Below are positions 1,995 through 13,498 of a stretch of 64,000 nt of DNA, in pieces. The number at the start of each line of letters is the position of its first letter. Position 1 is the stretch's first letter. Both the position numbers and the translations under genes were made by a program. Source of the DNA: Muriicola sp. Z0-33 (lineage in GTDB: Bacteria > Bacteroidota > Bacteroidia > Flavobacteriales > Flavobacteriaceae); NCBI RefSeq assembly GCF_026126425.1, contig NZ_JAFMPW010000005.1, positions 62,001-126,000 of the forward strand, written 5' to 3'. The notes below the pieces were generated by a model that did no database searches, had not been told where the DNA came from, and was given only the letters and a program-made list of their open reading frames with translations.

Positions 1995-3335
1995 ATGTCC
2001 GATGAATTTGATTTATTAGAAACCGATTCTTCCTCTGAGCAGGAAAAAGTAGAGGTGAACTGGGGCAAGACCGTTGACCAAATGAAGTCTAAGCTGGCTC
2101 AGGAGGACGATCCGGAAATGCGTCAAAAAATATTAAATGCGACCCTTGATGATGTTGTGGGGATGGCAGAGAAAGATAGAACCTCCCTATTAGAGGCGAT
2201 AAAAGACCTTACTGATTATCAGGATGAAGTAGGCATAATTTTTGAAAAATTTTCTACCCTGAATGCCGCTGAGCAAAAGGTGATAGATGATGCCGAAAAA
2301 GGATTGAACAGGGCCAAGTCTGAATTAGACGAGGCCGAAAAGGTGAAAGACAATTGGTGGAACAACCTCTGGGGCCGCAAATCCAAAATTAAAAAGCGTC
2401 AGGTAGAACTGGCCGCTGCACAGAAAGTCAGGGATGGTGCAGATCTGAAGGCCAAACAAATGTTTCAACAACGCATAGAATCGGCAGATGTTCAAACCTT
2501 GTTAAACGAACTTTCATATAAAAGTCAGGCAGCAGTTGGCCGCCTGAAGAACAGGGAGGTGGAAATCAAAGAGGTAGAGGACAAGTTGCAGGTGGCCATT
2601 GTTGAAGCCAGTAAAAACCACACCCGGGCTCTGGAGAAGAAGAAAGAAACAGAAGATAAGTTAGAGGAACAGTATGCGTTGCTAAAGCAGGCGCGGCAGG
2701 AATTGGAGGAGATCGCCGATAAGCAGTCTGCTGCCTATTCTGAGGCAATTGGAAAAGTTACTACCATAGAGCAAAAAGTAGAGGAACTGGAAGGACTAAA
2801 GAATGCCTATACCACCCTTGCAGCCAGCAAGGATAGTTTTGTCCACAAACATAATTTAACCATTAAGGTACTGACTTCCTTAAGAAGCAACCTGCAATCT
2901 CATAGGGCAAAATTAAAAAGTGATACTGATGAACGGTTAAAATATTATGACGGCTATGTAATTGCCTTAAAAGCAAGAACGGATCAGGAATTTGCAGCCA
3001 TTTTGGAGCATCTGGGAGTTAAAACGGATGAACATATTGGACAGACGCTTGCTGCTATGCATACTGCAAGTGCTAAGGCCCGTCAGGAAATGATGGATAA
3101 TATTCCGGTACATGAAAAAGTGATGCAGGGGGTATACTCCAGTTATGCAGAATCTCTGCAGGAAATTAGAATGAAGGATGCGGAAATACAAAAAGATTTT
3201 GCTAATCGGTATGGTATCGATATGAAAGAGATCTTCGAGGAGTATTACGCAACAGATGGTAATACCGGTCCTGAGGAAAGCCCAGGAGAACCCGAAGCAC
3301 CAGCTCCACCAGCAGAAGATGATCTGCTTAGTTAA
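1995..3335 (+). CDS. Unrecognised cytosolic coiled-coil protein with acidic, proline-rich tail (first gene of AAA+ cluster)
   Basis: 446 residues with no signal peptide or membrane segment. The N-terminus is acidic (MSDEFDLLETDSSSEQEK), a WWNNLWGRK patch lies near residue 121, and the middle (about 85-300) is a long Glu/Lys-rich coiled coil. A more compact helical part follows to about residue 415. The last 25 residues are a flexible Glu/Pro/Ala tail ending DDLLS. It is the first of six co-directional genes running to 9995. I considered TelA-type tellurite/anion-resistance proteins because of the helical make-up, but found no clear match. A scaffold or adaptor for the AAA+ ATPase two genes downstream is inference from context. 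A 288-base non-coding gap upstream must hold the promoter. Confidence 0.8.
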   Translation: MSDEFDLLETDSSSEQEKVEVNWGKTVDQMKSKLAQEDDPEMRQKILNATLDDVVGMAEKDRTSLLEAIKDLTDYQDEVGIIFEKFSTLNAAEQKVIDDAEKGLNRAKSELDEAEKVKDNWWNNLWGRKSKIKKRQVELAAAQKVRDGADLKAKQMFQQRIESADVQTLLNELSYKSQAAVGRLKNREVEIKEVEDKLQVAIVEASKNHTRALEKKKETEDKLEEQYALLKQARQELEEIADKQSAAYSEAIGKVTTIEQKVEELEGLKNAYTTLAASKDSFVHKHNLTIKVLTSLRSNLQSHRAKLKSDTDERLKYYDGYVIALKARTDQEFAAILEHLGVKTDEHIGQTLAAMHTASAKARQEMMDNIPVHEKVMQGVYSSYAESLQEIRMKDAEIQKDFANRYGIDMKEIFEEYYATDGNTGPEESPGEPEAPAPPAEDDLLS

Positions 3336-3443
3336 TTATTTAAAGATCAATTCGCTTTCAATTAACAGCGAAATGGCATTTACTTTTATCATTGCTAATA
3401 GGCCGACATGCGTTGGCGCCAATGTTTTCTTAACTTTAATATA

Positions 3444-4496
3444 ATGGCCTTAAACCAAATTGTAACACCTTTTGATAGTGCTGTTCTTGAGACTAAAGAA
3501 CAGTACAAGGCCTATTTTCAGATAGTGAAACACGCTTTTAAGCAACTGGTGCACAGTATTGCTAAGGAAAAGATTTGCAATGAACTTGAAACCACCCTGA
3601 TTACCCAATATTGCGAATTACTTACTTACTCTCTGGAGGCTTTCAGAATAAAATACCTCTTTAATGACGAGGAGAAAATGAGGATTGACCTTACAGAATC
3701 CGGGTTTCCAAACTATCTTGAATTTCGCTACCTGTACAACGATCTGGAATTGAAGAAAGAACATATGAGCAAATTGCCGGATATTGATAAAATTAAAGAG
3801 GAATTTCTTCATACACTTTTAAGGGATAAGCAACCAATACCTGATCGGAAACTGCACCAGGCCGCCTCCCTTGTATATTATTCATCGGTAGACCAGCAGT
3901 TTATTTTTAAACGTTTTGTTCAGGGAAAAATAATTAAAGTTGAAGAGGATTTTGCCCAATATATGGTGAGTTGGTCTTTTTATGATGTAACCTATAACCG
4001 CCCATTTATTTGTTATATGTATTTTGATCTTCACGATGAGAGCGTTGCGGAGTACAAACCCAAGATTTATGAAGTGCTTCGGAAGACGGCAGACCGAGAT
4101 ATGAGTCTTGATATGATGGCATATGCCATAGATAAAAAATTACCCAATTTATGGCCTAACAGACTGAAAAAGATAGATTTGGGGCCTCTTCATAATGTTT
4201 TTGCCAAAGACGAATTGCAAGTGACACATGCCTTATTAAAGGCTATAGCCAATAAGGTATTAGACCTGGGATCTTACGCCATCTCACTTTCTGTGGATGA
4301 AGTGATTTCTACCGGAGACTTTGCGGAGGGAAGCTTTTTCAGAAAGCAATACCTTCAGTTATGGGAAGCCTCAAAACCCAGAAAATATTTGTTTACTTCA
4401 CATAGAGTGATGCAATCTCTTTATGACAATATTCCGGAAACCCTTAGAGGTTTATCCGGGGAACCTATAGAAATTCCTTCTTTAAAACTCATATAA
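3444..4496 (+). CDS. Unrecognised soluble protein, second gene of AAA+ cluster
   Basis: The open frame begins at 3408, but the ATG at 3444 (MALNQIVTPFDS) is a better start: the 12 codons before it are rich in Arg, Cys, Trp and Asn, unlike the rest, and 3444 follows an AT-rich stretch typical of Bacteroidota initiation regions. That gives 350 residues, mostly helical, with no signal peptide or membrane segment. Near residues 175-210 there is a beta-like segment rich in aromatic residues (VSWSFYDVTYNRPFICYMYF). I recognise no family. The stop codon (4494-4496) directly abuts the ATG of the ATPase at 4497, indicating translational coupling and a shared function with it. Confidence 0.78.
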   Translation: MALNQIVTPFDSAVLETKEQYKAYFQIVKHAFKQLVHSIAKEKICNELETTLITQYCELLTYSLEAFRIKYLFNDEEKMRIDLTESGFPNYLEFRYLYNDLELKKEHMSKLPDIDKIKEEFLHTLLRDKQPIPDRKLHQAASLVYYSSVDQQFIFKRFVQGKIIKVEEDFAQYMVSWSFYDVTYNRPFICYMYFDLHDESVAEYKPKIYEVLRKTADRDMSLDMMAYAIDKKLPNLWPNRLKKIDLGPLHNVFAKDELQVTHALLKAIANKVLDLGSYAISLSVDEVISTGDFAEGSFFRKQYLQLWEASKPRKYLFTSHRVMQSLYDNIPETLRGLSGEPIEIPSLKLI

Positions 4497-6461
4497 ATGG
4501 AACACAATAGTACCTTTCCTATAAAACTATCTGAACTACAGGCCCTGAGAAATGAAGCTACTTCTTACCTCAAGGGCGTGCAATGGGAGCAAGGTGGAAA
4601 GGCAAAAAGACGGAATAAAGATCAGAAAGACGATTCTATTTTACTTTATCTGTCTAAGGCCAATGGCACGGCCGCTAAAGAGGTAATCTCTGTTTCCAAA
4701 ACCATACTTTCTTTAAAAAAGCGACTATTACCAGATTCGGTCGCTATCCCATTACACCTAAATCGTGCACTTTATGCACTTCAGGAGGGGCTTACCATGG
4801 GAATTTGGCTTAAGGATAGCTATTATGATGCTTCCGGCCTTTCTTCACTAAATGAAAGAAAGTCGGTTCTGGATAATGCCCATAGAAGAGAATACGATTC
4901 TAAATTGCATACGGCTACTGCATTTATGCTGCATGGTACGGCATATCGCATATTGTATGATCTTAAACCTGTGGCGTCTGACGACCTGAGCGTAATGAAA
5001 AACAAATTTGCAGGGATACCAGAACTCTCTTTTATGTCACCTCTTAAAGGGATTTCCTGTCTTTTATTCTATTATGATAAATATCTGAATCATCCTGAAA
5101 TTATAACCTCAGATAGGGACGTGGTAGATTTTACTGTAGTCTTTTTTGAAGCCATTATAGACGAGATTCAACTGCGGATTAGCGCTCTGGAATACACTGA
5201 AACTATTACCGATCGTAGTTATAAGCTCGAAAAAAGTGACTTTGCCGTTTCTGGCTGGGAAAATGTATTTGAAGGAACTGCAAAAAGCGTAGAATTCAAT
5301 AAAATTCAATTTGAGGAAATTGTCGGTAACCGCGATGCCAAACATTTTGCGCGAAGACTCACGGAAAGAATGCTTAGTTACGACTTTGCGGCAAAACAAA
5401 ATCCGTTTCTAGAATTGGGAGGCTTTATGCCGGTATTTATGGGTTATGGGATCCCTGGAACCGGTAAAAGTATGCTGATCGCTGCTATTGCTACCCGACT
5501 AAAAGAACATTGTGATCACCTGGAAATTCCATTTTTATTCCATCCAATGCCAGATACGCTTATTTCAACCTTTCAGGGAGGGTCTGCAGAAAAAATGGTA
5601 CAGTGGATGAAACCCCTGCAAGATCCCGGCAAACTAATTTTTGCTCCGATTGATGATGCAGAGAACAATCTACAGGAAAGGACTGCACAGGGGGTTTCGG
5701 CCGGAGTAAAGGAAGTTATTGGGGTATTCTTGAGGTATACGGAAGGAGCTTATGCCATTAATTATGGCAATAGTGCGATAGGATTGTTTACAAATCTGCC
5801 AGAGATGCTTGATAAGGCGGTTATTTCCAGAGTTCAGGGAAGGTTTAAAATAGATGGTGCAAGGACCATTCCTGATTTTATTGATCAGGATTATTTATGG
5901 TGGCGCAAGTTTGATACCACTATGCCCGATTTCGTGAACATGAAAAAACCGGAGAAATATGAATTTCTAAGTGAACAGGGACTGGCTAAAAATCTAGGTG
6001 AAATATTGAATACTTCCGAGAAACCTACCGAAGAGCGTGTTTTGGAGATTTATGAGGAAACAGAAGCTAACCACAAAACAACAGAACATCTCTTTTTTGC
6101 TGCACTGTTTAAAAATATTCAGAAGGAATTTCCATTTTTTTCCTCCAGGGATATCCGCAATATTCAAAGCGCAGTATCGCTTAGATTAACCGACTTTGAT
6201 TTGCCACAAGATTGGTTTGATAATGGGGAATTGTATTTTAAGAAAGATTATGACACCAAACTTTCAATGTTGAAAGAACTCATGAAGGCCAATATGAAAG
6301 GACTCAATTTTTCGGATATAAGAAAGCAGGAAACAGTGCGGTATCTGGATAATGTAGCAACTATTGCCGATACTGATTTTAAACGAAAAGTAGATCAACG
6401 CATACACGATATGAACGTGCAGCAGGAAGCTCAGAAAAAATTTAATTCGGAAGCGCAGTAA
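4497..6461 (+). CDS. AAA+ ATPase, classical AAA-like, of the six-gene cluster
   Basis: 654 residues. A helical N-terminal region of about 270 residues precedes one AAA+ module. Walker A is GIPGTGKS at about 318-325, Walker B ends in Asp386-Asp387 (FAPIDDAEN), sensor 1 is Thr432-Asn433 in TNLPEMLDKAVISRV, and Arg445 and Arg449 are candidate arginine fingers. The TN-P-x-x-L-D pattern resembles classical AAA proteins (FtsH, Vps4, katanin type) rather than MoxR. Walker B has DD where most AAA proteins have DE, so hydrolysis may be slow or altered. A helical C-terminal extension follows. There is no membrane segment, so it probably works as a cytosolic hexamer, perhaps on the membrane proteins encoded downstream (inference). 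It abuts the previous gene and is 2 bases from the next. Confidence 0.88.
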   Translation: MEHNSTFPIKLSELQALRNEATSYLKGVQWEQGGKAKRRNKDQKDDSILLYLSKANGTAAKEVISVSKTILSLKKRLLPDSVAIPLHLNRALYALQEGLTMGIWLKDSYYDASGLSSLNERKSVLDNAHRREYDSKLHTATAFMLHGTAYRILYDLKPVASDDLSVMKNKFAGIPELSFMSPLKGISCLLFYYDKYLNHPEIITSDRDVVDFTVVFFEAIIDEIQLRISALEYTETITDRSYKLEKSDFAVSGWENVFEGTAKSVEFNKIQFEEIVGNRDAKHFARRLTERMLSYDFAAKQNPFLELGGFMPVFMGYGIPGTGKSMLIAAIATRLKEHCDHLEIPFLFHPMPDTLISTFQGGSAEKMVQWMKPLQDPGKLIFAPIDDAENNLQERTAQGVSAGVKEVIGVFLRYTEGAYAINYGNSAIGLFTNLPEMLDKAVISRVQGRFKIDGARTIPDFIDQDYLWWRKFDTTMPDFVNMKKPEKYEFLSEQGLAKNLGEILNTSEKPTEERVLEIYEETEANHKTTEHLFFAALFKNIQKEFPFFSSRDIRNIQSAVSLRLTDFDLPQDWFDNGELYFKKDYDTKLSMLKELMKANMKGLNFSDIRKQETVRYLDNVATIADTDFKRKVDQRIHDMNVQQEAQKKFNSEAQ

Positions 6462-6463
6462 AC

Positions 6464-7699
6464 ATGGAAAAACTTAGGGCAGCAGGATTATTTGGAGGAG
6501 GAATGGTGGCCCTGACCGGCTCCCTGGCAAGGCGTTATAACGAATGCCTTGAGCTTTTGGGCGTGGGAGCTACTAAATTAAAAACCTTTTCAATTGACGG
6601 GATGGGCTGGAGTCCGGAAATTGCGCTTGAAAAGAAAAATAACTTTTATCTCAACAATGGTCCGGCCAATGTAAATGCAATTATCATAACCCCCCGCCAG
6701 AAAGATCTGGCGGTGCATATGCCGTCTCATAGTTTTGACAAAGATGTGATGAAAACGATTTTTTCTGTCTATCCGACAGAGATCAGGGATGTCACAAAGG
6801 ATGCTGCCCTTATTGCGCACCTGGATCAGGATATTGATTCTTTATTTGAACCCTTCGACCTTTTAAGATACAATCAGATCGAAGTTAAATTTAAAGTGCT
6901 TAAAGATCTCTATAAAAAGCAGCAAGAACAACAGGCATTGGTTGCTTTATTCAGGGATAAGAATAATTTCATTAACCGGGAAATTCACAAAGAACTCTTA
7001 CAAACCGCCACGACTTATGGAGACCTCCGTAAACGGAAATTGAATTTTGAACCAATACTTCATGAAGTAGGATCATTTTACACCCGCGCATTTGGGGGAG
7101 TATTTATTTTAAAAGAGTTTATAAAACCCATCCTGGTTTTCGAGGATGAGAAAGTTTTTAAAGGAGCAATTCAGGATACTGCGCATGATGTACTCATCTA
7201 TCACATACGTCATGATGAACTTATGGAAACGCTTGTCAAACATTTGATTCTTGAGAAAAATCTGAAAAAAGCTGCGAAAAGCACCAGATATAAGCGCATA
7301 AAAAATCACAGATTTATTCAGTACTTAGAAAAAAAGGAACATTCACTAAAAGAGATCCTGGACAGCCATTTTCTTTCTAAAAAATACTTGAATCAGCTAG
7401 ATATTGAGACACAAAAGAAAATAGCAGGAGTAGAAATATATTTCCAGAAATTTATTGTGGATAAAAGCCTGAAAATAGAAGACTATGTGGATGAACAATA
7501 CTTGAAATCACTTCATCAACCACATACCTCCCTGGAAATAGAAGACAGGGAGCTCGTTTGGAAATTGCTGACCAAGATAATGCCTAATGATCCTTTGCAT
7601 CTGTATTGGTATGACAAAGAACAGTTTTACAGAGAATACGTAAACTGGGATCCCGACTACAGGGAATGGGTAATAGAATGCATCCTGAAGAACAATTAA
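6464..7699 (+). CDS. Unrecognised soluble protein, fourth gene of AAA+ cluster
   Basis: 411 residues starting MEKLRAAGLFGGGMV, two bases after the ATPase stop, so very probably in the same transcript. The N-terminal third looks alpha/beta, with a Gly-rich start and beta-like stretches such as NVNAIIITPR. The rest is helical and basic, with KNLKKAAKSTRYKRIKNHRF near residues 265-285 and an aromatic C-terminus (LHLYWYDKEQFYREYVNWD). There is no signal peptide or convincing membrane segment. I have a vague recollection of uncharacterised DUF-type proteins of this length beside similar ATPases in other bacteria, but cannot name one securely. Its function is unknown beyond co-occurrence in the cluster. 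Confidence 0.8.
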   Translation: MEKLRAAGLFGGGMVALTGSLARRYNECLELLGVGATKLKTFSIDGMGWSPEIALEKKNNFYLNNGPANVNAIIITPRQKDLAVHMPSHSFDKDVMKTIFSVYPTEIRDVTKDAALIAHLDQDIDSLFEPFDLLRYNQIEVKFKVLKDLYKKQQEQQALVALFRDKNNFINREIHKELLQTATTYGDLRKRKLNFEPILHEVGSFYTRAFGGVFILKEFIKPILVFEDEKVFKGAIQDTAHDVLIYHIRHDELMETLVKHLILEKNLKKAAKSTRYKRIKNHRFIQYLEKKEHSLKEILDSHFLSKKYLNQLDIETQKKIAGVEIYFQKFIVDKSLKIEDYVDEQYLKSLHQPHTSLEIEDRELVWKLLTKIMPNDPLHLYWYDKEQFYREYVNWDPDYREWVIECILKNN

Positions 7700-7711
7700 A
7701 AGATTTAAGAG

Positions 7712-8233
7712 ATGACACTTGAAATTATAGTATTTGTACTCGCCATACTTTTTGGCATCATATGGTTTTGGAGAGAATCCAGAAGCAACAGCTTATACAG
7801 ATTGGCCAATAAAATAACCCATTCCAAAAAGCTGCAAATGAAGTCCGATAACAATAAAGGCTTTGTTCATGAGCAACCCTTTCTGATGAGATTGGTATGG
7901 ATAACGCTGCTTTTTGTAATTGCCGCATCGGTGGTAAGTTTTGTCACACCTATTAATGCGTTTTATATCCAGTATTTTGCCTCTGCTATAGTGGGTACCC
8001 TTGTGGGTACTTATGTAGCATCTGCCCTTATTTTTGCGCAGGATAGTACCAAAAAAGAGAATCTCGAAAAAGTTTTTAAAAAAGGGAAAGAGTTTGTTGA
8101 AGATTTAACCGACTCAGAAGAGGACACAAAAGAGGATAAGACAGCGGAAACAACCGAACCTGAAGCAGCGGAGGAGGAAGAGGTGAAAAAGTCGGCTCGG
8201 GACAGGCTTAAGGATAAAGGAATGATCAAATAA
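7712..8233 (+). CDS. Small inner-membrane protein with three membrane segments and acidic cytoplasmic tail
   Basis: 173 residues. Hydrophobic segments lie at about 3-20, 61-79 and 87-108. The last contains Gly-rich helix packing (SAIVGTLVGTYVASAL). The C-terminal 60 residues are highly charged, with an acidic Glu/Asp/Thr block followed by a short basic end (KKSARDRLKDKGMIK). It starts 12 bases after the previous stop. I recognise no family. The acidic tail resembles the acidic ends of the first cluster protein, and a docking role for the ATPase or coiled-coil protein at the membrane is inference. The next cluster gene follows after 94 bases, which is the loosest junction in the group. Confidence 0.78.
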   Translation: MTLEIIVFVLAILFGIIWFWRESRSNSLYRLANKITHSKKLQMKSDNNKGFVHEQPFLMRLVWITLLFVIAASVVSFVTPINAFYIQYFASAIVGTLVGTYVASALIFAQDSTKKENLEKVFKKGKEFVEDLTDSEEDTKEDKTAETTEPEAAEEEEVKKSARDRLKDKGMIK

Positions 8234-8327
8234 ACGAGATGCATGGGGTGCTGCACCCAACATCTGTTTGATATCTGCAACCTAAAAGAGAAGGCACTTT
8301 TTATAATGAAATCTTAATACAACACCA

Positions 8328-9995
8328 ATGTTTAGATCATACTGGCGAAAAGGGAAGAAACAAAAACGAAACCTCATAGTATTGGGGATTGTATTCTTGT
8401 TGGCATTGTTTTTCCTGAGAGATGATTATCAACCGGCATTACTTTTTCTTAGAAAATACGTTTTTATCATTCTCCTGGTAGGTCTGTTCCTTTGGTTGGC
8501 GGTGTCCAGATTCAGAAATTCCGCTAGTACCGGAAAACGTTTATTAATACTTCTGGGGATTTTTGCTTTTCTAATTTCACTTTGGTTTTTTGGGTGGAGG
8601 TTGAATTTATATCAATATATGCAGACCTATAATGTCTTTAATAATTTAAATAAGACAGAAATTAATGAATTGCCCCTGACACAGAATGAAAGGATACAAC
8701 CATTCAACAATATTGTCACCATGGCGTATGAGTCTATAGGCGAAACTCAGGAAGTATCATTACCTCAGTTGGTAAGAGTAGACAGCACCAACCAATGGAC
8801 CATGGCCGTTCAGCCTGCTAAAGAGTATACCTGGCAGCGTATTAATGACAATACGGAAGAAATCTTTTCCGTAGAAAGCACCTCTCCCTTCCCCAGATTC
8901 TCTAACGAAAACCGCATACCCGTTACTTTTTCGATAGGGGAGTCTCTTGCATTTAGCAGAAATACATATAATGCCGTCGTACAGCGCTTTAATATCTTTC
9001 AACTGTTTACCCTGGAACCCAGTGATGTCTTTTACATGAAGAACGATTCGGGGAAATGGGTACAGGTCGTTAGTTTAATCAAGTGGGAAGGCTTTTTCTT
9101 TCCTTATCCTACCTATGGAGGTGTAATGGTAATTGAAGCCGGAGAACACAGTTTTAAGGACTATCTGGAGCGTATCAGTGTTGGGAAGGGTATTTATATA
9201 CCGCCTTCACAAATTAGTAAATATCCCTATTTGGTTAGCCAAAACACTTTGGCAGAAAAAGTTTCCAGAATCCAGGCGCAATCACTTCAATTCCTGGGAG
9301 GATTTACAGATCCCTTGCCCTGGAATATGAAAACAGCAGTAAAGATTCCGGAACTAGCGGATGATCAGAACCAACAACCTTTTGTGACCGACTTTAATTT
9401 TGACGGCATGAAAATAAATACTAAAGACGGGCTATACCATTGGTTTGGATTAGAACCAATAGGAGATGAAAGAACCAGCCTGGCTTACAGTGTTATGATT
9501 CCTGCCGATGGTACCGACAAGCTCTTCTATTATGACCACTCTGCTAAAAAGGAAGGAATGGCGGGGGTTTCGGCCATGCCATTAAAAGTTATTGAGTCTA
9601 GAAAGGAGTATGACTGGAACGTAAATAAGGCCGTAGAATTCAGGCCATTTATTAAATATATCGCAGGCCGAAAGCGCCTTTTTGTTTTAGGGACAGTTGC
9701 TGCGGTTAGAGATAGCAGTAAACAATTTGATGGAGCCGCTACCCCTGATTTAGCTTTGGTAGACGCCGAATACAGAGATGTAATATGGATAGATGCTAAA
9801 CATCCTTCAAACTGGACTACCACTATTCTGCAACAACTTGGTGAAACATGGAAGGCTTCAGAAAGACTTACAGATGAACAGCTTTACCCCAATAAAATCA
9901 ATTTAGATCTGGACAAGGAAATAGTACGGGATAGCATTGCAATAGATTCAACAGTGGCTCCAATTGCACCCATACAGGCAGATGCATCAAATTAG
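8328..9995 (+). CDS. Membrane-anchored protein with large extracytoplasmic domain, last gene of AAA+ cluster
   Basis: 555 residues. A basic N-terminus (RKGKKQKR) is followed by three hydrophobic segments at about 15-29, 44-60 and 72-90, then about 460 residues without membrane segments. The basic N-terminus inside and an odd number of helices place the large domain outside the cytoplasm. That domain looks beta-rich and aromatic, with no motif I recognise. It ends in an Ala/Pro/Asp tail. Its stop TAG (9993-9995) shares two bases with the stop of the convergent TraB-like gene. As the only cluster product with a periplasmic domain, it is the likely envelope-facing part of the assembly (inference). 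Confidence 0.8.
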   Translation: MFRSYWRKGKKQKRNLIVLGIVFLLALFFLRDDYQPALLFLRKYVFIILLVGLFLWLAVSRFRNSASTGKRLLILLGIFAFLISLWFFGWRLNLYQYMQTYNVFNNLNKTEINELPLTQNERIQPFNNIVTMAYESIGETQEVSLPQLVRVDSTNQWTMAVQPAKEYTWQRINDNTEEIFSVESTSPFPRFSNENRIPVTFSIGESLAFSRNTYNAVVQRFNIFQLFTLEPSDVFYMKNDSGKWVQVVSLIKWEGFFFPYPTYGGVMVIEAGEHSFKDYLERISVGKGIYIPPSQISKYPYLVSQNTLAEKVSRIQAQSLQFLGGFTDPLPWNMKTAVKIPELADDQNQQPFVTDFNFDGMKINTKDGLYHWFGLEPIGDERTSLAYSVMIPADGTDKLFYYDHSAKKEGMAGVSAMPLKVIESRKEYDWNVNKAVEFRPFIKYIAGRKRLFVLGTVAAVRDSSKQFDGAATPDLALVDAEYRDVIWIDAKHPSNWTTTILQQLGETWKASERLTDEQLYPNKINLDLDKEIVRDSIAIDSTVAPIAPIQADASN

Positions 9996-12900
9996 TACAT
10001 CATAAACTGATCTGGCTTGTAGACCATTGCCCTTGATCTGTCTTTTAAAATGAATTCCTCAGTGACGAATTCCATTACTTCCTCATCGGATTCGGTGTCT
10101 TCAATTCGCATTCCTTCATTTTTAAAATAAGGTAAAGTCAGAAGCTTATCGTCATCTTCAAATACCACGATATGCATTTTAAAATTACCATTGTAATTTT
10201 GCTTGTCTCCTAACTTAAAATAATAGCAGTTATAGGTCTTTCCTCTGAAAGAGATATTTTTTTCATCCAGATAATGTAAATCATCCTTCATAGGGTTGTA
10301 TCTCCTTTGACCAAAAAGTGCGGCTGCCGCTAAAGCACTTTGAGAAAGATGAGCTTTTGGAAACAGATGTAACTTATCTATGCGTTCTAAGCCATTGAAT
10401 AGCATTGCCCTGCTATTAATATCAGCAGCAAGCGATGCTAACATTTTATCCGGCATAGGTGAACCGCTATCGGCTAAGAGCGTTGCATATGTAGAGATGA
10501 TCCTGGGGTCCTTTACAAGCTGAAGTCTTTCAAAAAACTGACTCATACCCTTTTCTTTGATAAATGGGTAAAGCAGAATGACGTAGTCTTCGAGCAAGCT
10601 ATTCTGTTGCCTGGCAACTCTGCTATATCGTGGCTGACCATTTTTATTCAAAGACCTTCCCAGATGCCTTTTCAGTTGTATTTTGGCATCGTTCAAAAGC
10701 TGTTTCCTGTATTTTTTATAACTGGATGGTTTTATCATTCCCTCGGATCTGAGTTCGGCCAGGATAGATAATATGGGCGACTTATACTCAGTTATACTGC
10801 TGTAATCAAGGATTTCCGGGTATAACTTTTTAACCAGATTCAGACTATCACTTATAGGTCTGAAAATGTTTTGTATTTCAAAGGTATTGGAGACCAGCGG
10901 AAGGTCCTGAGAAATCAGTTGAAGTAATAATTTAACCGAATTTTCATCTCTTGATTTGGCAATTGCCTGTAAAATCTTTGTTTGAGCTCCTGAATTATTA
11001 TATGATTTTCCATAATAGTCCTTGAAAAAGGATACCACTTTTGGATCGTCTATTTTGCCCATTTTTTGAATAAGATGCGCCTGTATATGTTTTTTATCTG
11101 ATGGGAAATCAAAGTTTTCTATGTAATATTTTAAAGAGTCTATGTGTGATGTGTCAAATTGAATGAATCGGTAACCGGTAAGTACAATACTATCATTTGC
11201 ACGAAGAGCTTTGAAGAATTCCGCTGACTTGTCTTTGAGGATATGCTCCCCCTGGGGTGTCCCTTCTGGCTTGAAGTTTTCAAAAAATTCTGACACAAAT
11301 TTACTAGGGCCGCTTACAGTATCTACTTTTGCTTTTAGCTCATACAAGAAGTTTCCTTTTAAGATATTCTTTACCCGAATATGTCTTGTACTTGCCGTAT
11401 CTGATAGCGTAAGTTGAATTTCGTAATGCCCTTCGTCCGATTTTGATTTGGAAGCCTCGATTACTTTAAATTTTTTATCGGAGTATTGTTTTTTTCTCAG
11501 GGCCCAAACAGAATCTATATTGGAAAATGTCAGGAAATCATGACCCTTTGTAAGCTCTACAGTGATAGCCTCGTTATTTTTGTTCTGGTAAATGGTCTTT
11601 TTGGAATAAGGGGCATATGACTTGGGCTTTTTACCTGTCTGGTAATAGGAATTGCTGTTTTCTACAAATTTTGGCGGAGTTACCGGCGAAACTGTACTAA
11701 AAAAAAGAGCAGTGTCCTTTACCGTTTTAAATCTTTCGGGATAGGAAGAGTCCAGAATATTAAAGGAATCAAAATAATCTTTAGCTGCTTTGCCCGATTT
11801 GGTTAGTGTGCCAAGCAGATAATAATCGCCACGTTTCAGAGTGGTTTTTAAGAATAATTTCTTTCCATTAATAGAATCAAAAGTTGCACTTGATGTAAGG
11901 TCGCTGCCCGTGTATTGATCGTATTTTGGATCTAACTTCAGGTCTTGGTAGAATCTCCTTTGTATTTGCTTCAACTCAAAACTATCTTCCTCAATAAAAT
12001 TGAAATCGTTCAGGGTAACTTTCCTAAGAAAATAATAGTTGTCTTCTTTCGGGTCATAGCTTTCAATATGTCTTTTACCCTTCCTGAATTGGTTACTAAA
12101 AGAATATAGTGCCGGCATCTTTATCTCAAAATCCTTGTAACCCGAAGTTAATCGGACACTCTTTTCGGATACTTCTTTAAATTTCAGGCTGTTGAAAATT
12201 GTATCTGATTCAACAAGCACGTAATCACCTTCTCCTCCCATTTTAAAAATGAGAATTTCTAAAGGAGTGATATAAATTTGATACCGTTGGTAATCCCCAT
12301 TCTTGAGTTTATTCCTGATATCGATACCCTCAAAGCCATTTTTGATAATTTTTGTTTTTTCGATTATGGTTCCAGGAATATTTTCGAAAAGGAGTTCATC
12401 TATATCCGAAATTGAATAATCAGAACTTTGCTTTAAAAATGAGTAAGTAGGGACCCGATTGACCATGAAATAACTTCCATTGGCCAGGTCTGCTGAGAGA
12501 TAAATAGTATTTATATATTCAGAAACAGGGTAGAGTTTGGCAGGTAGTGAAACAGTAAAAAAATTGTCATCCGGACCATAGGTTTCGTATACGTTTTCCC
12601 TTGTTTTAGTTTCAAATTTTGTTTTTAATCTATATCCTTTTTTAGTTGATGCCGAAACCAGAGGCTTTACCGTATACCCTTTTTGTCTAAGTAAGGAAAT
12701 AACTCCTTGTTCTCCTGGCAAATGTGCAGCTCCGATTCCGGCAAATACCTTGGCCGTTTGCATCACAGAGTCCAGACTATGTGCCATATTTTCGTTTCGT
12801 AAATAAAGCATATTCTTTAAGTAATGCCGGGTATACATGGCGCGGTCAATAGAATCTAACAAATTTATATTGCGTTCTCTGTAGGCATCCTGCATCAGGA

Positions 12901-13498
12901 ACATCAGGTCTTGACGCTGCATTTTCTTTTGCAGCCACTCATCCGGTTTTTGTTTAACAGCATTAAGACTGGCTCTTCCTACAAGGGCGGTTGACTCTTC
13001 CAGATTTTCTAATGCAATTACAGGTTTGTTAAACTTACTTCCGGCCTGATAGATGAACATATCTAAATAGGTCTCCTCCTCAAAATTCTGCGAGTACTCA
13101 TTGGTTCTGTATAGAATGTTATTCACCAGCCTGTCTTCAAAGGCCAGGTACCCGGCCAGTTGTTCCTTTGTAGGAGGGCTTATTGTGAAATTTCTGAAAT
13201 AAAACCCTTTGGGGATAAAACCATTGTTTTGAGAATAGCCCGAACTAGTCATGTTAGAGTCGTTTTCGAGCCAGGTTGCCGGGTCCGATTCCAATGCTAC
13301 TTTCTCACTTTTATCAAGGGCTTCATAAAAGACATCATCCAATCTGAAGGCAATTTTTTTGCTTACATGCATAGTGCCATATAGATAAGACGTCTTTTCC
13401 AGACCATTACCGGAAATCTCCCAAAGAAGGCTGTTTTTCTCCTGGGCAAAAATTGGCGAACAAAAACAAAGAATGATTATCGCGATGGTTAAACGCAT
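9992..13498 (-). CDS. Giant exported TraB/GumN-family protein with C-terminal helical-repeat region
   Basis: 1,168 residues with a signal peptide (IAIIILCFCSPIFAQ). Residues about 20-290 match the TraB/GumN family: the opening LLWEISGNGLEKTSYLYGTMHV, a central catalytic-type region, and IGAAHLPGEQGVISLLRQKG, the usual closing motif. TraB/GumN proteins are usually about 300 residues. Family members include the TIKI metalloproteases, whose GxxH and GxAH motifs are echoed here by YGTMHV and GIGAAHLPG. The remaining 850 residues hold beta-rich stretches (300-750) and a helical, HEAT-like region (about 790-1010, for example KTKILQAIAKSRDENSVKLLL). I infer a periplasmic peptidase-like or binding protein. 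Its extra domains have no assigned role. It is monocistronic and convergent with the AAA+ cluster. Confidence 0.82.
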   Translation of the reverse strand: MRLTIAIIILCFCSPIFAQEKNSLLWEISGNGLEKTSYLYGTMHVSKKIAFRLDDVFYEALDKSEKVALESDPATWLENDSNMTSSGYSQNNGFIPKGFYFRNFTISPPTKEQLAGYLAFEDRLVNNILYRTNEYSQNFEEETYLDMFIYQAGSKFNKPVIALENLEESTALVGRASLNAVKQKPDEWLQKKMQRQDLMFLMQDAYRERNINLLDSIDRAMYTRHYLKNMLYLRNENMAHSLDSVMQTAKVFAGIGAAHLPGEQGVISLLRQKGYTVKPLVSASTKKGYRLKTKFETKTRENVYETYGPDDNFFTVSLPAKLYPVSEYINTIYLSADLANGSYFMVNRVPTYSFLKQSSDYSISDIDELLFENIPGTIIEKTKIIKNGFEGIDIRNKLKNGDYQRYQIYITPLEILIFKMGGEGDYVLVESDTIFNSLKFKEVSEKSVRLTSGYKDFEIKMPALYSFSNQFRKGKRHIESYDPKEDNYYFLRKVTLNDFNFIEEDSFELKQIQRRFYQDLKLDPKYDQYTGSDLTSSATFDSINGKKLFLKTTLKRGDYYLLGTLTKSGKAAKDYFDSFNILDSSYPERFKTVKDTALFFSTVSPVTPPKFVENSNSYYQTGKKPKSYAPYSKKTIYQNKNNEAITVELTKGHDFLTFSNIDSVWALRKKQYSDKKFKVIEASKSKSDEGHYEIQLTLSDTASTRHIRVKNILKGNFLYELKAKVDTVSGPSKFVSEFFENFKPEGTPQGEHILKDKSAEFFKALRANDSIVLTGYRFIQFDTSHIDSLKYYIENFDFPSDKKHIQAHLIQKMGKIDDPKVVSFFKDYYGKSYNNSGAQTKILQAIAKSRDENSVKLLLQLISQDLPLVSNTFEIQNIFRPISDSLNLVKKLYPEILDYSSITEYKSPILSILAELRSEGMIKPSSYKKYRKQLLNDAKIQLKRHLGRSLNKNGQPRYSRVARQQNSLLEDYVILLYPFIKEKGMSQFFERLQLVKDPRIISTYATLLADSGSPMPDKMLASLAADINSRAMLFNGLERIDKLHLFPKAHLSQSALAAAALFGQRRYNPMKDDLHYLDEKNISFRGKTYNCYYFKLGDKQNYNGNFKMHIVVFEDDDKLLTLPYFKNEGMRIEDTESDEEVMEFVTEEFILKDRSRAMVYKPDQFMMY

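Follow-up and report, generated by a model that had tools for sequence, protein, structure and literature searches.

The window analysed here, a stretch of 64,000 nucleotides of Muriicola sp. Z0-33 (contig NZ_JAFMPW010000005.1, positions 62,001 to 126,000), comes from a draft assembly of 4.15 Mb in 49 contigs that is 99.9% complete, and harbors six open reading frames on the plus strand between positions 1995 and 9995, hereafter g1 to g6, which probably encode a hitherto undescribed machine that acts at the cell envelope. The acidic coiled-coil protein g1 (1995..3335, 446 residues) is followed by g2 (3444..4496), a soluble protein of 350 residues without a described family, by g3 (4497..6461), a classical AAA ATPase of 654 residues with its AAA domain at about residues 265-460, and by g4 (6464..7699), a DUF6638 protein of 411 residues; g1 and g4 are both components of the core described below. 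Two membrane proteins complete the set, g5 (7712..8233, 173 residues, three hydrophobic segments and an acidic tail) and g6 (8328..9995, 555 residues, three hydrophobic segments and then about 460 residues). An initial annotation had reported six co-directional genes, all of which are present on the plus strand, with very tight junctions. The latter description is exact for g2-g3, g3-g4 and g4-g5 (0, 2 and 12 bases), while the remaining two are wider, with 94 bases between g5 and g6 and 72 between g1 and g2, or 108 with the corrected start of g2. This start was moved from 3408 (a reading frame of 362 residues) to M13 at 3444, which is the likelier position since the similarity to relatives mostly begins at residues 12-18 of the reading frame and the median length of the relatives is 350 residues.

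The arrangement was compared with the best 80 of 256 confirmed g3 relatives from a scan of genome contigs, more distant relatives falling outside this set. The 80 loci are labelled Flavobacteriaceae, Flavobacteriales, genera belonging to these groups, or Bacteroidia/Bacteroidetes. With a gene counted as full-length when at least 70% of the query is aligned and a stop codon lies within the locus, all six are full-length in 69 loci, in identical order in each of the 69, and the other 11 stretches terminate in or near the operon, one of them (L047) having no g1 in the 1.1 kb upstream of g2. Across the 80 loci g3 is found in 80, g2 in 79, g1 in 77, g4 in 76, g5 in 73 and g6 in 70, with the next commonest neighbour family reaching 34. 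A second sample covered 199 Flavobacteriaceae genomes, each from a different genus: g3 is present in 62 and g1 in the identical 62, while g5 occurs in 62 and g6 in 63. Both membrane genes accompany the operon in 61 of these 62 genomes, the additional g5 residing in genome G557, and g1, g3 and g6 lie near each other on one contig in 58 of the 62. The one genome with g1 and g3 that lacks both g5 and g6 is G548, which is 73% complete. The treatment of the six genes as one cluster in the initial annotation is thus borne out by their co-occurrence elsewhere, and it is well supported that they form one conserved functional unit, so far without a name.

Individual genomes reveal where this unit can be divided. 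In G492 (one contig of 2.95 Mb) the operon is scattered over three sites, 1.83 Mb (g1-g2-g3), 2.58 Mb (g4-g5) and 2.68 Mb (g6), so that its order is lost with all six genes retained. In G526, g1-g4 are inside one contig and g5-g6 inside another. G557 has adjacent g5-g6 without g1, g3 and g4, and G554 possesses g6 without g1, g3, g4 and g5. The breaks in G526, G557 and G554 separate a core, g1-g4, from a membrane pair, g5-g6. G349 and G126 are not exceptions, as their upstream genes sit beyond inserted genes; the insertion in G349, between g4 and g5, encodes a 453-residue protein without a Pfam family (L109:7737-9098). The two parts also differ in conservation: across the same 13 loci, the mean identity to the window is 88.4% for g1 and 84.7% for g3, compared with 77.9% for ferrochelatase, making g1 and g3 the most conserved operon proteins, and g5 and g6 are more variable. 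The g6 protein is still well conserved, being 63-81% identical to the window in 53 relatives.

A NUDIX hydrolase gene recurs in the operon of one set of genera. It follows g3 in 23 of the 80 loci (for example L061, L062, L077 and L088), starting 1921-2681 bases past the g3 start, and by a tighter rule lies strictly between g3 and g4 in 16. G554 has a NUDIX gene directly adjoining g6 (L111:6972-7571), of the YffH/AdpP subfamily and near NudK, the product of which is 44-79% identical to the 23 operon NUDIX proteins.

The ATPase g3 contains a single stretch that matches PF00004 (AAA), with an E-value of 2.6e-8 and 34.8 bits against a cut-off of 21.2, and relatives from Vibrio and Sinorhizobium score 50.1 and 41.8 bits, respectively; the N-terminal portion of about 260 residues is without a family match. 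We aligned 87 proteins, 81 flavobacterial (the window included) and six proteobacterial. The Walker A motif GIPGTGKS (5448..5471) has G318, P320, G321, T322, G323 and K324 in all 87, followed by serine or threonine at 325, and pore loop 1, F359-Q360-G361 (5571..5579), maintains Q-G throughout. Its aromatic residue is phenylalanine in 81 of 81 flavobacterial and tyrosine in six of six proteobacterial proteins, and F359 aligns with the tyrosine or tryptophan of the matching loop in a VCP-like ATPase; by analogy with the AAA family, this residue would have the role of an aromatic pore loop. Equally unvarying are the Walker B residues D386-D387 (5652..5657; D-D in 87/87), the sensor-1 residue N433 (87/87) and R445 and R449 (5829..5843; both arginine in 87/87). 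The latter sit where classical AAA proteins have their two arginine fingers, and may act as such if g3 behaves as its family does. The match and the constant residues agree with the initial annotation, which had recognized an AAA+ ATPase with classical sensor motifs and a DD Walker B. The Walker B motif of AAA proteins is usually D-E, a feature that the Pfam cut-off does not demand. The second acid of g3 is aspartate and not glutamate, and we take this departure from the usual D-E as a within-family variant.

Among solved structures, a VCP-like ATPase is nearest to the g3 AAA domain (2.6e-9), with Cdc48, i-AAA, Pch2, SKD1/Vps4, Pex6 and proteasome ATPases behind. These matches characterise g3 as a classical AAA protein of the substrate-threading type, and by its family it would be expected to thread its substrate likewise. 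The comparison with VCP/Cdc48 and FtsH-type proteins extends to the AAA domain, for which VCP-like is the best solved match. In contrast to those proteins, g3 has one AAA domain, the unmatched N-terminus, no protease domain and the D-D Walker B. Membership in CdvC failed in NCBIfam (20.8 bits against a cut-off of 650), and no MIT domain was detected at the N-terminus by Pfam up to an E-value of 5, using sequence profiles alone.

We searched the family libraries Pfam, NCBIfam, PADLOC and PHROGs with all six proteins, and also ran profiles against solved structures. Just g3 (PF00004) and g4 exceed a Pfam cut-off, the latter matching PF20343 (DUF6638, a family without assigned function) with an E-value of 1.3e-22 and 80.8 bits against a cut-off of 27. 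The earlier statement that the ATPase alone has a named superfamily consequently needs amendment, as g4 also falls into a family. In a phylum-wide sample of 395 genomes, DUF6638 was present in five, every one a member of Flavobacteriaceae. A comparison of g2 with g4 found no relation. In NCBIfam, PADLOC and PHROGs the matches were below cut-off or weak, the best being general AAA families for g3 and the MAG0920 family of NCBIfam for g5 (26.4 bits, under the cut-off of 43), and the solved structures offered nothing convincing for g1, g2, g4 and g6 (best E-value 0.026). Hence the proposal that the genes correspond to no known system holds for the four libraries, none of which names one. No description of the six-gene operon was found in titles and abstract openings of the literature. 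A full-text search for DUF6638 and DUF2333 led to PMC5256989 alone, which lists amidase, duf2333 and NUDIX genes in a row in Pseudomonas fluorescens MFE01.

The connection to the envelope is drawn because of hydropathy, from which the membrane segments were assigned, and the positive-inside rule, applied by eye for the topology. Three hydrophobic segments are apparent in g5 and in g6, agreeing with their previous description as three-helix membrane proteins. By this rule, the acidic tail of g5 would be cytosolic, while the approximately 460 residues of g6 would lie outside the inner membrane, in the periplasm; an AlphaFold2 model of g6 was unusable, with a predicted local distance difference test score (pLDDT) of 46.7. 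The ends of g1 and g5 were each compared in 74 proteins, the g1 set being taken from the 80-locus sample. The final g1 motif is EDDLLS (3315..3332), with the last four residues fitting [DN][LM]L[SG] in 74 of 74. The C-terminal tail of g5, KSARDRLKDKGMIK (8189..8230), displays SAR-[DEQ]-R-[LF]-K-[DN]-KG near its end in 70 of 74, the other four deviating by a K/R change. Because these ends are so fixed, docking tags are suggested: the end of g1 is likely a docking or recognition tail, and that of g5 likely a docking tail.

Outside the Bacteroidota, a tblastn search with g3 recovered 10 of 72,556 plasmid records, all Vibrio or Rhizobiaceae replicons of at least 0.88 Mb, and g1 recovered 11; seven stretches were inspected. 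Two Vibrio records have two proteins, then the ATPase and then a DUF6638 protein, and the four core genes are also found in Sinorhizobium meliloti Ak57, Sinorhizobium K101, Shinella and Rhizobium leguminosarum TP16. The DUF6638 assignment of the Vibrio and Sinorhizobium members is clear (1.6e-58 and 8.2e-76). The first Vibrio/rhizobial protein aligns with g1 in hhalign at 8.3e-9, or 3.8e-10 with more rows (0.13 for the reversed sequence), and the second with g2 at 6e-18 (0.24 reversed). A neighbourhood survey of Bacteroidota and Proteobacteria, as had been envisaged at the outset, thus finds the core in both, and from these alignments g1-g4 are homologous across the phyla. The membrane pair g5/g6 was undetected in stretches of 15.8 to 25.7 kb around the Vibrio and rhizobial cores, and no g6 homologue was found in the plasmid records at an E-value of 0.01. 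In Sinorhizobium and Shinella, the core is followed by a gene for a DUF2333 (PF10095) protein, which has between one and three hydrophobic stretches at its N-terminus. Furthermore, plasmid pSK03 of R. leguminosarum BIHB 1148 (L106:8989-11343) has a g1-like gene (32% identity) and DUF2333, without g2-g3-g4, in the same context as the core of S. meliloti Ak57, with a choline transporter/thymidine kinase on one side and a formate-tetrahydrofolate ligase on the other. Here g1 is tied to a membrane protein in a setting that lacks the ATPase. A ChvI-bound fragment lies within SMc02733 of S. meliloti (PMC3687685). This gene may belong to the present locus, and is not used as evidence here.

These distributions bear on two alternative functions. 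An envelope secretion or export machine, energised by g3 and with g6 as its outer part, would explain why one operon combines an ATPase and a coiled coil with a membrane protein whose predicted outer domain is large. However, none of the six proteins matched a secretion-component family in the four libraries, and g5/g6 are undetected beside the Vibrio and rhizobial core, leaving this option improbable. A more serious contender, although in our view still a rather doubtful one, is that g3 and the adaptors g2/g4 extract, assemble or check membrane complexes in an FtsH/VCP-like manner, with g5/g6 as substrate or dock and g1 as a scaffold or delivery factor rather than a polymer that is dismantled. 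It is favored by the proximity of the g3 AAA domain to VCP-like ATPase and Cdc48, ahead of i-AAA and Vps4, by the resemblance of the conserved g1 and g5 tails to recognition tags, and by the greater variability of g5 and g6 relative to g1 and g3. Nevertheless, the six proteins include no protease or ubiquitin-like family, and the g1-like gene that accompanies DUF2333 without g2-g4 argues that g1 does more than serve the ATPase as an adaptor.

Defence against phages by a system with an AAA ATPase appears the least credible of the functions considered. It would fit the patchy presence (62 of 199 genera) and the weak similarity of g3 to IetA (best PADLOC match 4.3e-5; NCBIfam 15.7 bits against 510), as well as a DUF559 gene between g3 and g4 in two Sinorhizobium loci. 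The latter, endonuclease-like, is located at L094:13914-14318 and L096:13906-14349, and in Ak57 an insertion sequence follows it. The IetA similarity is nonetheless confined to the AAA part. The IetAS system consists of an IetA-type ATPase and a protease partner, and a protease is absent from the Pfam matches of the six proteins, as is a nuclease; in Shinella and TP16 no DUF559 gene separates g3 from g4. Moreover, the operon yields one match per genome and an identity above that of ferrochelatase, and a scan of phages and viral contigs with the g3 ATPase gave 51 candidate stretches, none of which was confirmed as a homologue.

The coiled-coil protein g1 agrees with its initial description as acidic, with an isoelectric point of 4.96 and no membrane segment by hydropathy. 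Its predicted model is all-helical, with long helices at 166-239 and 246-326, and is weak (pLDDT 61). Foldseek returned no match to this model at an E-value of 0.001 or below, the best being 0.022; we rejected the generic long-helix matches from there upwards (for example alpha-pore-forming toxin subunits) as not meaningful. Two characterised kinds of locus, Tel/Ter and MoxR-type, had been named as examples of a match that would refute the initial reading, and neither was matched by profile search. MoxR-type loci combine a MoxR-type AAA protein with a vWA partner, and no MoxR or vWA model in Pfam matched any of the six up to an E-value of 5. A stress-resistance locus of the Tel/Ter kind is suggested by the rhizobial g1, which by eye resembles TelA (PF05816) in size and layout, and by TelA genes likewise adjoining a partner reading frame. 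On the other hand, no TelA was found in the host genome and no TelA/Ter family among the six proteins in Pfam, and TelA loci have different partners. In hhalign, g1 scored 0.33-0.88 against eight TelA proteins, at the level of the reversed controls (0.25-0.77), so that no sequence relation was detected. We accordingly regard the Tel/Ter explanation as very improbable.

We tentatively propose instead, at a probability of about 0.38, that the six genes encode a machine that uses ATP to pull on an assembly of the coiled-coil protein g1 docked at the membrane, following a Vps4-like logic without a claim of homology. In its favor are the linkage and joint presence of the genes, the retention of all six in the scattered G492, the separable core and membrane pair, the homology of the core across phyla, the invariant AAA residues, the pairing of a g1-like gene with DUF2333, and the high identity of g1 and g3. 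Such a machine would comprise two modules, a soluble core of g1-g4 and a membrane module of g5 and g6. In the core, g3 would be the motor, presumably hexameric and gripping its substrate by the aromatic pore loop, and would together with the soluble partners g2 and g4 pull apart or rearrange the g1 assembly, g1 thereby serving as substrate or scaffold. The g5/g6 pair may anchor or control this assembly at the inner membrane and reach into the periplasm, a role that the DUF2333 protein perhaps assumes in place of g5/g6 in Sinorhizobium and Shinella. The combination of core and membrane parts can be likened to Vps4 acting on ESCRT-III, and would be compatible with a role in maintenance of the envelope.

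Likeness to Vps4/CdvC with ESCRT-III (archaea and eukaryotes) and to PspA/Vipp1 (bacteria) resides in the classical AAA domain with its aromatic pore loop and two arginines, in the adjacent gene for a coiled-coil partner and in the membrane setting, and Vps4 is among the nearest sequence matches of the g3 AAA domain. Unlike Vps4/CdvC, g3 remains far below the CdvC cut-off and is outscored by VCP-like ATPase as the solved match; unlike ESCRT-III and PspA, g1 has no sequence relation to PspA or Snf7, with no PspA_IM30/Snf7 match in Pfam up to an E-value of 5; and the operon also supplies the partners g2 and g4, together with a membrane protein whose outer portion is large. Operons in which PspA/Snf7 coiled coils are combined with AAA ATPases and membrane proteins have been described in bacteria (Ravi et al. 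2024, PMC11237479), and ATP-dependent membrane remodelling has been suggested for such PSP-associated AAA operons; the present gene set is undescribed in the consulted part of that work.

Several observations weigh against the proposed pulling machine. The D-D Walker B could mean that g3 hydrolyses ATP slowly or not at all. In VIA comparisons, the g1 model (pLDDT 61) aligned with an SMC arm (Z 10.3), Shrub/Snf7 (Z 9.5, root-mean-square deviation 3.4, 112 aligned), VIPP1 (Z 9.2, 5.2, 133 aligned) and the Asgard ESCRT-IIIB (Z 8.9, 8.5, 133 aligned), along with F-BAR domains and many others, all with Z near 9-10 and therefore below the level of about 13 that the VIA notes name for helical proteins. 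ESCRT-III chains thus do not appear to fit the model better than coiled coils of other kinds do. A relation of g1 to PspA was rejected as well, with hhalign values of 0.08-0.44 against 13 PspA proteins, from a total of 17 that exceeded the cut-off, and 0.05-0.10 for the reversed controls. Beyond Flavobacteriaceae the membrane module is not constant, since the core of R. leguminosarum TP16 is not accompanied by DUF2333 and the Vibrio core has no identified membrane gene beside it, and no relation of g5 or g6 to DUF2333 was found by Pfam or hhalign (0.31 and 0.35). Finally, G554 and G557 indicate that the membrane part can persist alone.

PspA is itself known as a bacterial ESCRT-III protein. 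Among the 199 genomes, PspA exceeds the Pfam cut-off in 17 (21 at an E-value of 0.001 or below), and for the 17 coincides with the operon in one genome (G590) against 5.3 expected, a hypergeometric value of 0.012 that stems from a single test and is uncorrected for phylogeny. Shared ancestry could yield this contrast, which is weak support for the machine. A further-reaching version is that the operon is a second, non-homologous bacterial counterpart of ESCRT-III/Vps4, an ATPase-driven, membrane-docked coiled-coil polymer served by dedicated adaptors and by a sensor or anchor in the periplasm, replacing PspA in many Flavobacteriaceae and shared by some Vibrio and rhizobia with other membrane parts; as a whole, we consider this version unlikely. 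Should g1 indeed form polymers controlled by the ATPase, they would represent a new bacterial solution to membrane remodelling. Five of the six proteins are without assigned function in the libraries used, despite g1 and g3 being more conserved than ferrochelatase. A conserved motor, found with a coiled coil and an outer-domain membrane protein, points to an envelope process of a large bacterial family that has yet to be described, and the natural cases of gene loss and scattering make it testable.

The operon is flanked by genes on the minus strand. Upstream and divergent from g1, an amidase-like protein (PF07313) is encoded at 870-1706; as this family recurs in 15 of the 80 loci, a link to peptidoglycan is conceivable. 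Downstream of g6, positions 9992-13498 encode a TraB/GumN-type protein (PF01963) of 1168 residues, whose long C-terminal part has no clear family assignment; its gene adjoins the operon in a subset of the relatives. Farther away, at 20466-40478, the window contains genes on the minus strand for esterases, GH109-type and GH20 glycosidases, oxidoreductases and a pyrroloquinoline quinone (PQQ)/cytochrome c protein, followed on the plus strand by two Sortilin/BNR-type proteins and one sulfatase, a set that looks like one for glycan use.

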